A stretch of 22,750 nucleotides of DNA from Candidatus Mcinerneyibacteriota bacterium (lineage in GTDB: Bacteria; AUK180; JAQVHJ01): positions 1-22,750 of the forward strand of contig DAOVMD010000004.1 of the NCBI GenBank assembly GCA_030630935.1, given 5' to 3'. The notes beneath the pieces were generated by a model that did no database searches, was not told the DNA's origin, and saw nothing but the letters and a program-made list of their open reading frames with translations. Below are positions 4,308-14,829 of this stretch, one piece after another (position 1 is the stretch's first letter; every line of letters starts with the position of its first letter). Position numbers and translations under genes: made by a program.

Positions 4308-4865
4308 ATGTTAAATGAATCATATCAAGATACGAAGAAGAGAATGGCAAAAACCATTGAAGCACTAAAGCGCGATTTTTCTAAGATCCGCACCGGTCGT
4401 GCGAATCCTTCCGTATTAGATGATATTAAGGTAGATTATTATAATACGCTTACACCTTTGAAACAAGTTGCCAGCATTGCAGTTCCTGAACCACGGCTTA
4501 TAGTAATTCAGCCCTGGGATAAGAGTGTAATTAAAGAGATTGAAAAGCAGATTTTAGCAGCTGACCTTGGTTTTAACCCGAATAGTGACGGTAATGTAAT
4601 CAGACTTCCTATTCCTCCACTGACAGAGGAGACAAGGAAAGATATTGTGAAGCAGATAAAAAAGATTTCTGAAGAATCAAAGATTTCAATAAGAAATATT
4701 CGTCAGGACTCAAATGATTTTATTAAAGATCTTGAAAAGAGTAAAGATATCTCTGAAGATGAGAAACATACCGGCTTAGGAAAGATTCAAGAGATTCATG
4801 ATAAATTCATTGAAGAGATTAATGATATTACGCACAAGAAAGAAAAAGAGATAATGGAAATTTAA
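4308..4865 (+). CDS. frr: Ribosome recycling factor
   Basis: With EF-G it splits post-termination ribosomes. The protein is 185 aa, the standard length, and shows the conserved RTGRANPSVLDDIKVDYY segment, VPEPRLIVIQPWD, GNVIRLPIPPLTEETRKD and the long C-terminal helix with IRNIRQDSND. The ATG at 4308 is preceded by AGGAG and AGGA; an upstream in-frame TTG would overlap pyrH and adds residues not found in the family. A strong terminator follows, so this appears to close the first transcription unit. Confidence 0.98.
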   Translation: MLNESYQDTKKRMAKTIEALKRDFSKIRTGRANPSVLDDIKVDYYNTLTPLKQVASIAVPEPRLIVIQPWDKSVIKEIEKQILAADLGFNPNSDGNVIRLPIPPLTEETRKDIVKQIKKISEESKISIRNIRQDSNDFIKDLEKSKDISEDEKHTGLGKIQEIHDKFIEEINDITHKKEKEIMEI

Positions 4866-4956: not shown

Positions 4957-5694
4957 TTGGATAAAATCTCAAAGAAATTACTGGATAAAATTGATCCGAA
5001 CAAACTACCGCAGCATGTTGCATTTATTATGGACGGGAATGGCCGCTGGGCGAAGAAGCGTGGACTACCTCGTATCTTTGGACATCGGGAAGGAATTAAA
5101 AATGCAATTGGAGTAGTTGAAGGTTTAGGTCAGCTGAATATTAAGAACGGTACACTGTATGCCTTTTCAACTGAAAACTGGACTCGTCCGGAAAAGGAGA
5201 TCAAGGCATTATTAAAGCTCTTCAGAGATAATTTTATTTCAAAGAAAAGCCGATTACTTGAGAATGGTGTTAAGATAAGATTGTTAGGTGATTATCAGAA
5301 ATTTCCACAAGATATGGTTGATGCAATTGACGAACTGATTGAAGATACTAAGGATAATACAAACTTAGAGTTAGCGATTGCATTAAATTACGGTTCACGA
5401 CAGGAGCTGGTGCGGGCAGTTAAAAAAATTACTGAGAAAGGTCTCAAGTCCGACGAGATAACAATAGAAACGATTAGCGAGAATCTTTACACTGCCGGTA
5501 TGCCTGATCCTGATTTATTAATTAGGACAAGCGGTGAGTTCAGGATAAGTAATTTTTTATTATGGCAGATTGCATATACAGAAGTATTTATCTCAGAGAA
5601 GTTCTGGCCCCAATTCACAGCAGATGACCTTGCTAATGCAGTTATTTGGTATCAATCCCGAAATCGGAGGTTTGGCAGCGTTGAAAAAAAGTAA
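4957..5694 (+). CDS. uppS: Isoprenyl transferase (undecaprenyl diphosphate synthase)
   Basis: Condenses isopentenyl diphosphate onto farnesyl diphosphate to build the C55 lipid carrier for cell-wall and O-antigen precursors. The cis-prenyltransferase motifs are present: HVAFIMDGNGRWAKKRG with the catalytic Asp at residue 26, FSTENW, ALNYGSRQEL, and RTSGEFRISNFLLWQ-AYTEV near the C-terminus. TTG at 4957 is placed 7 nt from AGGAG (4945-4949). The TTG just before it at 4954 is also possible and would add one residue. The 245-aa length is typical. The 3' end overlaps cdsA by 14 nt, so the two are translationally linked. Confidence 0.96.
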   Translation: MDKISKKLLDKIDPNKLPQHVAFIMDGNGRWAKKRGLPRIFGHREGIKNAIGVVEGLGQLNIKNGTLYAFSTENWTRPEKEIKALLKLFRDNFISKKSRLLENGVKIRLLGDYQKFPQDMVDAIDELIEDTKDNTNLELAIALNYGSRQELVRAVKKITEKGLKSDEITIETISENLYTAGMPDPDLLIRTSGEFRISNFLLWQIAYTEVFISEKFWPQFTADDLANAVIWYQSRNRRFGSVEKK

Positions 5695-6568
5695 TCTAAT
5701 AAAAAGATTTTTAGTTGCGTTAGTTTTCATCCCCGGATTAATATATTTATTCTATATTGGCGGTATTGCGTTTAGTATTTCGATTGCAATAATCAGTTTG
5801 CTCGCTTATTATGAATTTCTAATGGGATCATTAAAGATTAAATCAAAGAAAGTAGTCAGTGTTATTGTTATTTTAGCCGCATTGCTTTTTCAATATAGGT
5901 TCATTGTTAATATATTTCATTTAACCGATTCCGGGAGTTTAGCATCTTTTCACGGGATTGCTTTGATGGCTTGGCTACTACTTATTTTCATTCTCTTTTT
6001 TCTTTCATTTTTTTACCTGAATAAAAAAAATCTTCCTTCTATGATTAATGATTTTGGAATGATTGTTTCAGGTTTTTTTTATACACAAGTGTTGTTATTT
6101 ACATTACCGTTATTAAGAGAGTTTATCCCAAATAATAATGGGTTTCACGTAATCTTATTTATTTTAATAATGATTTGGATCAATGATTCCCTTGCGTTTT
6201 TTGGCGGGTCTTTATTCGGGAAACATAAGCTTGTTCCCACAATAAGTCCCAACAAAACAGTTGAAGGTTTTCTAACCACATTATTTTTAACCCCGGTATT
6301 TGCAGTGATATTTCATTTAATATTTAAGTACCCCGGGAGTATTTTAAAAGCAGCTTTACTTGGTGCTGTAGTTTCATTCTTTGCAATGTACGGAGACCTA
6401 ATTGAGTCGGCACTTAAGAGGTCTTTAGGCATTAAGGATTTTGGAAACCTTCTTCCGGGACACGGTGGATTTCTTGATAGGATCGATTCAGTTTTAGTTG
6501 TTGCCCCGGTTTTTTTTATTTGGTATTTTTTTGGGGGAATACTTTCAGGAATAAAATGGTTTTTTTAA
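5681..6568 (+). CDS. cdsA: Phosphatidate cytidylyltransferase
   Basis: Integral membrane enzyme that makes CDP-diacylglycerol from phosphatidate and CTP, the branch point of phospholipid synthesis. About eight hydrophobic segments are visible. The family signature lies near the C-terminus: SALKRSLGIKDFGNLLPGHG, followed by GFLDRID. I place the start at TTG 5681 because GGAGG (5666-5670) lies 10 nt upstream and the protein then begins KKSNLIKRFLVALVFIPG, like other CdsA proteins. The frame is open further upstream, but that part overlaps uppS and has no family match. The length is 295 aa. Confidence 0.93.
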   Translation: MKKSNLIKRFLVALVFIPGLIYLFYIGGIAFSISIAIISLLAYYEFLMGSLKIKSKKVVSVIVILAALLFQYRFIVNIFHLTDSGSLASFHGIALMAWLLLIFILFFLSFFYLNKKNLPSMINDFGMIVSGFFYTQVLLFTLPLLREFIPNNNGFHVILFILIMIWINDSLAFFGGSLFGKHKLVPTISPNKTVEGFLTTLFLTPVFAVIFHLIFKYPGSILKAALLGAVVSFFAMYGDLIESALKRSLGIKDFGNLLPGHGGFLDRIDSVLVVAPVFFIWYFFGGILSGIKWFF

Positions 6569-12169: not shown

Positions 12170-14404
12170 GTGGCGAAGAAGACAGCAAGCCATCGAACTA
12201 GAATTTATAAATTAGCGAAAGCGATCGGGATAGATACGAAGGAACTTTTAATCCGAATTAAGCGCGATTTCGGAATTGAGAAAAGTTCATCCTTAGATAC
12301 AATCGAGATAGCTTCAGCTGAGATTATTAAGAGGAAGATTCTAGGCGATCTAAAGCTTGAGAAAGCAAACCAGAAAACCCCGGAACAGAGATTAAGAGAG
12401 GTTAAAAGCACGCGTCGGAAAAAATCGGTTAAATCATCCAAGACCTCAAAATCGGAGAAATCACCTAAGAAATCAGCAAAACCAACTAAAAAAACGGCTA
12501 AACCTTCAAAGCCAACAAGGAAGAGATCCGCTGCATCAAAGGATGAGCAGGTCAAAAAGGTCAAGAAGGTAACTCGAGCGAAAAAAGGAAAACCGTCAGA
12601 AGTTTCAGAGACTGTAAAACCAAAAAGGCGCACTAAAAAAGTTTCGAAGAAGACACCAGCATTCGCAGCCGAGCCGCCGACGAAAAAAGTATTTACTCCA
12701 CCGACAATAAAGATTAAGAAAGAAACCATAATTAAGAAGAAGTATAAGAAAAAGAAAAAAGATTCAGACGATTCTCTAACCGCACCAAGTATTATTAAGA
12801 TTCCCCAAAATATTACGGTAAGTTCATTATCTGAAACGCTTGGGGTTGAGACTTCTGATATGATAGATAAGCTTATGCAGTTAGGGATAACTGCAAATAT
12901 AACCCAGCGTCTTGATGAAGAAGCAATTATTATGGTTTCATCTGAATTCGGTTTTGATATAGAGATCGAAGAAATTTTTAAAGAACCTGTTTTGGAAGTT
13001 GCGGATAAGGAAGTCATAAAGGGTCTTCCCCGTTCTCCGATAGTTACGGTTATGGGTCATGTTGATCACGGTAAAACAACTCTTCTTGATGTTTTAAGAA
13101 ACACATCTGTTGTAGATAAGGAGGTGGGTAAGATTACCCAGAAGATAGGAGCATCTATATTACAGACTCCAAACGGGGAAATTGTTTTCTTAGATACTCC
13201 CGGTCATGAAGCGTTTACAACAATCCGGGCTCGTGGAGCACAGGTTACGGATATTGTAATTCTTGTAGTTGCTGCAGATGACGGAATTATGCCTCAGACA
13301 ATTGAGGCGATCAATCATTCAAAAGCTGCCGGTATCCCGATTATTGTAGCGATTAATAAAATTGATGTTTCCAATGCAAATATTGATAAGGTCAAGACAG
13401 AACTTTCGGAACAAGGCCTTGTTCCGGATTCTTGGGGTGGGAATACAACATGTATCGAAATATCAGCATTAAAGAAGATTAACCTGGAAGATCTTGTCAC
13501 GGCAATTCAATTAGAAGCTGAGCATTTAGATCTCACCGCCCCAATTGATGTTCCGGCTAGCGGGACGATTATAGAAGCAAAAAGAGATAAACGTTTTGGA
13601 AATGTCGGATCTTTAATAGTTCTCAATGGAACATTACAGATTGGTCAGACATTTGTATGCGGATTAACTTATGGTCGAGTTCGAATGATGTTTTCGGATA
13701 AAGGAGAACGCTTAAAATCTGTACTTCCCGCCACACCTATTGAATTAGTAGGGTTCAATGATCTTCCGGAACCAGGTGATATGTTATCAGTAGTTAAAAA
13801 TGAGAAGACCGCAAAGCAGATGATCCAGGAAAGGAAGAACAAACTTAGAACTGTAACCGGTGCGGTTGATTCCGGTCAGGAGATTACACTTGAAGATTTG
13901 TACTCAACTCTTGAGTTTGGTGAAGTTAAGCTTCTTAATTTAATTGTGAAGTGCGATTCTGTCGGGTCACTTGAAGCAGTGATAAGCTCACTCGATAATT
14001 TTCCATCAGATAAAATTAAATTAAATGTTATCCATAAAGGCATTGGCGGAATTACTGATAATGATGTCAAACTCGCTCAAGCATCTTCAGATACAATTAT
14101 TATTGCTTTTGATGTTCCGTTAATGTCCCGAGTTCACGACTTTGCAAAACGAGAAGGGATTCAGATAAAACAGTACAATATCATATATCATTTAATTGAA
14201 GAGATTAAACTTGCAATGGAAGGGTTATTATCTCCAATCGAGAAGGAAGTGGTTCTTGGTCATTCAGAAGTCAGAGATATCTTTAAGATTTCAAGACTCG
14301 GAACAATTGCAGGATGTTTTGTTTTAGACGGGGTGATTAAAAAATCTAATTTTATCCGAGTTCAAAGAAATGAAGAAACCATTTTTTCAGGGACCATCGA
14401 ATAA
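12170..14404 (+). CDS. infB: Translation initiation factor IF-2, cut short by an in-frame TAA
   Basis: GTPase that brings fMet-tRNA to the 30S subunit and promotes subunit joining. Two IF2-N modules (about residues 8-55 and 210-265) flank a Lys/Ser/Thr-rich linker. The G domain has GHVDHGKT (296-303), DTPGH (342-346) and NKID (396-399). The G2 loop reads GKITQKIGA (320-328), where the family normally has GGITQHIGA. Domains II, III and the start of C2 follow. Translation begins at GTG with GAGGTGA upstream. The frame stops at TAA 14402-14404, in place of the conserved Ser of the ES-L motif, but 45 further codons matching the IF-2 C-terminus continue in the same frame to 14542. The rest of the gene looks intact. 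A base error, recent mutation or readthrough are all open. Confidence 0.93.
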   Translation: MAKKTASHRTRIYKLAKAIGIDTKELLIRIKRDFGIEKSSSLDTIEIASAEIIKRKILGDLKLEKANQKTPEQRLREVKSTRRKKSVKSSKTSKSEKSPKKSAKPTKKTAKPSKPTRKRSAASKDEQVKKVKKVTRAKKGKPSEVSETVKPKRRTKKVSKKTPAFAAEPPTKKVFTPPTIKIKKETIIKKKYKKKKKDSDDSLTAPSIIKIPQNITVSSLSETLGVETSDMIDKLMQLGITANITQRLDEEAIIMVSSEFGFDIEIEEIFKEPVLEVADKEVIKGLPRSPIVTVMGHVDHGKTTLLDVLRNTSVVDKEVGKITQKIGASILQTPNGEIVFLDTPGHEAFTTIRARGAQVTDIVILVVAADDGIMPQTIEAINHSKAAGIPIIVAINKIDVSNANIDKVKTELSEQGLVPDSWGGNTTCIEISALKKINLEDLVTAIQLEAEHLDLTAPIDVPASGTIIEAKRDKRFGNVGSLIVLNGTLQIGQTFVCGLTYGRVRMMFSDKGERLKSVLPATPIELVGFNDLPEPGDMLSVVKNEKTAKQMIQERKNKLRTVTGAVDSGQEITLEDLYSTLEFGEVKLLNLIVKCDSVGSLEAVISSLDNFPSDKIKLNVIHKGIGGITDNDVKLAQASSDTIIIAFDVPLMSRVHDFAKREGIQIKQYNIIYHLIEEIKLAMEGLLSPIEKEVVLGHSEVRDIFKISRLGTIAGCFVLDGVIKKSNFIRVQRNEETIFSGTIE

Positions 14405-14542
14405 TTAAAGCATATTAAAGATGATGTTAAAGAAGTTAAGGCAGGTTTTGAATGTGGAATTAAGATTAAGAAATTTGACGCATTAGAACTGGGAGATATA
14501 ATTGAAGCTTATGAAATAGTTAAGGAGAAACAGAATATTTAA
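14402..14542 (+). pseudogene. infB: Detached C-terminal codons of infB after the premature TAA
   Basis: Directly after the TAA, in the same frame, are 45 codons ending at TAA 14540-14542. They encode [15 protein letters not shown] and [15 protein letters not shown], the standard end of the IF-2 C2 domain that binds formyl-methionyl-tRNA. No start codon with a ribosome site lies at the beginning, so this piece would not be translated independently. Full conservation implies it was under selection until very recently, or still is. A single C-to-A change (TCA Ser to TAA) would explain it. Confidence 0.85.
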
Positions 14543-14544
14543 TA

Positions 14545-14829
14545 ATGTTTATTGGCTTGATAAAACTTAATTTAACGATTAATTTACAGATAAGCTCTTT
14601 AAAAGATAAAAGAAGAATTGTAAAAGGAATAAAAGATAAATTAAGGAATTCCTTTAATATCTCTATAAGTGAGATTGACCAGCTCGACAAATATTATCAA
14701 GCAGGTTTAGGTATTTCCTTAGTTTCAAATGATAAGAAGACCATAAACACGGTGATAGGCCGTATTTTAAATACAATGGAGAACATGAGTTCAGTAACAA
14801 TTGAAAATATAGAAACCGAGATTTTATAG
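14545..14829 (+). CDS. ylxP: DUF503 family protein (YlxP-like)
   Basis: A small (94 aa) cytoplasmic protein of the DUF503 family; the family is found beside infB-rbfA in many bacteria and its role is not established, though ribosome-related function has been suggested from context. Family features are visible: GLIKLNLTI, SLKDKRRIVKGIKDKLRN, the EIDQLDKYYQAGLGISLVSND stretch and a C-terminal helix. It starts 2 nt after the end of the infB tail (TAA TA ATG), so normal infB termination at 14542 would feed straight into it. It ends in TAG, whose last G begins the rbfA GTG. Confidence 0.9.
   Translation: MFIGLIKLNLTINLQISSLKDKRRIVKGIKDKLRNSFNISISEIDQLDKYYQAGLGISLVSNDKKTINTVIGRILNTMENMSSVTIENIETEIL

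Follow-up and report, generated by a model that had tools for sequence, protein, structure and literature searches.

An in-frame TAA within infB of a Candidatus Mcinerneyibacteriota draft genome, probably a single-base sequence error

The infB gene encodes translation initiation factor IF-2, and in the window, that is, the whole stretch of 22,750 bases analysed here (contig C7 of its source draft), this gene is interrupted by a TAA behind which the same frame continues to code. Is this stop a genuine codon that the organism decodes, a genuine codon that truncates the protein, or a wrong base in the assembly? Were it real and decoded, a bacterium would here translate UAA within an essential gene of protein synthesis, which would be a rarity, and an initiation factor that the cell needs would be controlled at an unusual point. 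When a single in-frame stop interrupts a core gene in a draft genome, error or private mutation is far likelier than recoding. The source draft has a size of 3.16 Mb in 471 contigs.

The interrupted infB and its neighbourhood

The infB ORF at 12170–14404 starts with GTG and is closed by TAA after 744 codons; the interruption pointed out in the initial annotation is thus exact in position and in frame. The locus is composed of the following parts.

12170–14401, plus strand: upstream part of infB, 744 codons, covering IF2_N, the GTPase, domain II, the IF-2 domain and the first half of C2
14402–14404, plus strand: in-frame TAA where a conserved Ser codon (TCA in the closest relative) is expected
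14405–14539, plus strand: 45 codons for the conserved end of IF-2 C2, with no ATG, GTG or TTG inside
14540–14545, plus strand: normal end of infB, a tandem in-frame TAA TAA with which the ATG of the next gene overlaps

The next gene, a DUF503/YlxP-like gene, has its ATG at 14545. Named from sequence and synteny, the genes tpr-nusA-infB-DUF503-rbfA-nrnA-truB-rpsO-pnp are collinear with those of the sister genus, the neighbours of infB being uninterrupted, and the order from nusA to pnp is that of the relatives. No clear sequence errors that would mark the contig as error-prone were found elsewhere in the window genes, a point that speaks against an error in infB. The draft genome, 80.3% complete, was also searched for a second infB, as had been proposed at the outset, and none was found. 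As a single copy in a conserved operon, the interrupted infB is the functional locus.

The 45 codons behind the TAA had been taken for the end of IF-2, and the profile of bacterial IF-2 (TIGR00487) agrees with this. Cut at the TAA, the product scores 633.7 bits and ends at position 540 of the 587 of the profile (matched from 3), and a complete C2 is accordingly absent from it, the rest being encoded behind the stop. Read through, the score rises by 64 bits to 698 bits and the match extends over positions 3–585; both scores exceed the curated cut-off of 424.4 bits. Since reading through lifts both the score and the coverage of the profile, the tail is the true C-terminus of IF-2, not a chance extension. 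Indeed, its alignment with solved IF-2 structures runs through to their C-terminus. The window gene therefore shares all domains and the C-terminal tail with bacterial IF-2, and its assembly differs by one codon, TAA in place of the relatives' Ser.

Furthermore, the tail shows no decay. It is identical to that of the sister genus at 30 of 45 residues, and the stretch just before the stop at 39 of 55, while the nucleotide differences in the tail fall at codon positions 1, 2 and 3 in the numbers 8, 7 and 20. Because the differences are mostly at third positions and identity is kept, the tail has been under protein-level selection; a long-standing undecoded stop would have let it drift. As these 45 codons contain no ATG, GTG or TTG, translation cannot restart at any of the common start codons there.

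All determinants by which IF-2 recognises fMet-tRNA reportedly reside in C2, whose fMet pocket includes E713 (PMC4611024). With C2 carrying these determinants and infB in single copy, a real truncation should be damaging, in line with the expectation of the initial annotation. The equivalent of E713 presumably lies in the tail, where the conserved ECG motif would place it.

The site in relatives and the origin of the stop

A total of 47 related sequences, including those from six other genomes of the phylum, were aligned across the site. The residue is Ser in 43 of them, Glu in two and Asn in two, and a stop is found in none; Ser is present in all six of the other phylum genomes. The closest relative belongs to the same family and to another genus, the sister genus above (contig JAQVHJ010000050.1; L007 and L010 are this one locus), and its Ser codon is TCA, one base from TAA. 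The conserved Ser and the single base change, both named in the initial annotation, are thus borne out, whereas recoding does not hold up: relatives with Ser at the site and a single intact infB, as found here, had been named at the outset as what would refute it.

Probably, the TAA is a technical single-base error at position 14403 of the draft assembly. An error in base calling, damage to the library or an error in assembly would have changed the codon of the conserved Ser, in the simplest case TCA, to TAA; in the organism itself infB would then be intact and IF-2 would be made normally. This reading is favoured because the draft is fragmented and only about 80% complete, the relatives in the phylum have Ser and the tail is undecayed, because infB is a single-copy gene in an otherwise intact operon and no other core gene in 452 kb is interrupted in a comparable way, and because a real truncation should harm. 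C-to-A and G-to-T substitutions are typical of oxidative damage to libraries, and the C-to-A class of the change seen here is compatible with such damage, although it proves nothing.

Internal stops caused by assembly error are also documented, which adds to the case for an error: in a study of 126,564 genomes, many of them were put down to faulty assembly and low coverage (Cooley and Wright, 2024; PMC11017572). Like the spurious pseudogenes that arise in this way, infB in the window is a core gene of a draft genome and is intact apart from one internal stop; here the error is inferred from comparison of sequences rather than from proof in the reads. A similar case, likewise counted in favour of an error, is found in an unrelated MAG, Candidatus Equibacterium intestinale (L038): the C2 region of its infB is interrupted by a single in-frame TAA at 4672–4674, six codons downstream of the Ser site, and the tail behind it is intact.

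A very recent genuine nonsense mutation, restricted to the sampled strain or carried by a minority of its cells, would look alike, since identity to the nearest relative over IF-2 is only about 60% and none of the genomes compared is closer than genus level. One C-to-A change from TCA would be enough for it, and an undecayed tail is what would be expected of a recent event. The cells would then make an IF-2 without the last half of C2 and would be either poorly viable or tolerant of the loss. However, IF-2 is encoded by a single copy and its C2 holds the fMet-tRNA determinants (PMC4611024), so that a mutation of this kind would not be expected to reach the consensus, and it is seen in no relative; this origin ranks second after an error and is considered unlikely. 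Error and recent mutation are nevertheless the two options of the initial annotation that the data favour, while the suppressor tRNA and programmed readthrough that it had listed beside them find no support.

Decoding of the stop, stop usage and tRNAs

That the UAA is real and is decoded often enough to give full-length IF-2, through an unseen ochre suppressor or a lineage-specific readthrough, appears very improbable, and the evidence on this point comes largely from the use of stop codons in the draft. The sample consisted of the window and 60 further contigs (452 kb, 116,270 codons, about 14% of the genome), in which stops were counted for non-overlapping ORFs of at least 100 codons (n = 343) and a dicodon scan was made for frames that are still coding past a stop without a start nearby, a scan whose sensitivity is incomplete. 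TAA is the main terminator, closing 214 of these ORFs against 66 for TGA and 63 for TAG. In the window itself, the 24 tabulated genes end with TAA in 17 cases (the infB stop at issue included), with TGA in four and with TAG in three, in agreement with the earlier remark that no change of code is visible.

The clear top hit of the scan for a coding frame across a stop is infB. The second credible hit, which is also the sole further interrupted gene in which a domain is recognised, is a single-copy fragment of a DDE_3 (IS630-type) transposase at 5312–6091 on the minus strand of another contig (L131, G000:C22). It has an in-frame TAA at 5735–5737, on the minus strand, and its front part is apparently frameshifted; this fragment is a decayed insertion element. 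No wider signal of in-frame TAA is present in the 116,270 codons, with infB as the one core gene interrupted, and a TAA code change is rejected on stop usage and the coding-potential scan over the window and the 60 contigs. For bacteria, the stop reassignments discussed in a screen of over 250,000 genomes concern UGA, and those of UAA that it names are in eukaryotes (PMC8629427).

Reassignment of TAA in the draft genome, or a split of infB into two proteins, is thus an extremely improbable account. Apart from the TAA in the decayed transposase, nothing beyond the single site speaks for it; the other window genes end normally, mostly with TAA, and the tail has neither a start codon of its own nor, by the search made, its own Pfam domain. 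An ochre-suppressor tRNA that inserts an amino acid at UAA, giving full-length IF-2, is scarcely more credible. The search for a UUA-anticodon tRNA that had been suggested covered the 30 tRNA genes found in the draft: a TTA anticodon is absent from all of them, and the anticodons of the four that carry Ser (tga, gga, cga and gct) are normal. Six isotypes (Phe, Tyr, Cys, Asn, Ile and Thr) are missing from those found, so the set is incomplete, and a suppressor could sit in the missing part. However, with so many genes closed by TAA, a strong suppressor would lengthen the majority of the proteins, and genes ending with TAA are no better backed by a second in-frame stop within 10 codons (111/214) than those ending with TGA (43/66) or TAG (35/63), so that the tandem-stop enrichment expected of readthrough is absent. 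Programmed readthrough of this single UAA, setting the amount of full-length IF-2, is given equally little credence. As in known cases of readthrough and reassignment, infB codes on in frame past the stop, with a conserved coding tail immediately 3′ of it. The locus differs from them in that the stop is conserved in none of the related sequences (the closest compared being at genus level) and is a sense codon even in the sister genus, no suppressor tRNA was found and no genome-wide signal is present. The base after the stop is U, which gives UAAU, reportedly the signal at which bacterial translation terminates most efficiently (PMC5289835). No stimulatory RNA fold was found 3′ of the stop, the predicted structure being no better than that of shuffled sequences (z −0.16).

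With regard to release factors, the draft has one RF-family gene (L191, at C92), which scores like the second, RF2-like gene of the relatives. No prfA (RF1) gene was found above the cut-off in the draft; since all six relatives have RF1 and an RF2-like gene is present at C92, this absence is read as incompleteness. RF2 terminates at UAA, so termination at this codon would persist without RF1. TAG ends 63 of the 343 ORFs although no RF1 gene is above the cut-off. Among the tRNA genes, a tRNA-Asp-like gene at 6091–6165 of a further contig (L142, G000:C33) has an 8-base anticodon loop and the anticodon gtct (ARAGORN). It directly precedes an intact tRNA-Asp gene (6191–6267) with the same leader repeat and is probably a degenerating duplicate of it, or else a sequence error.
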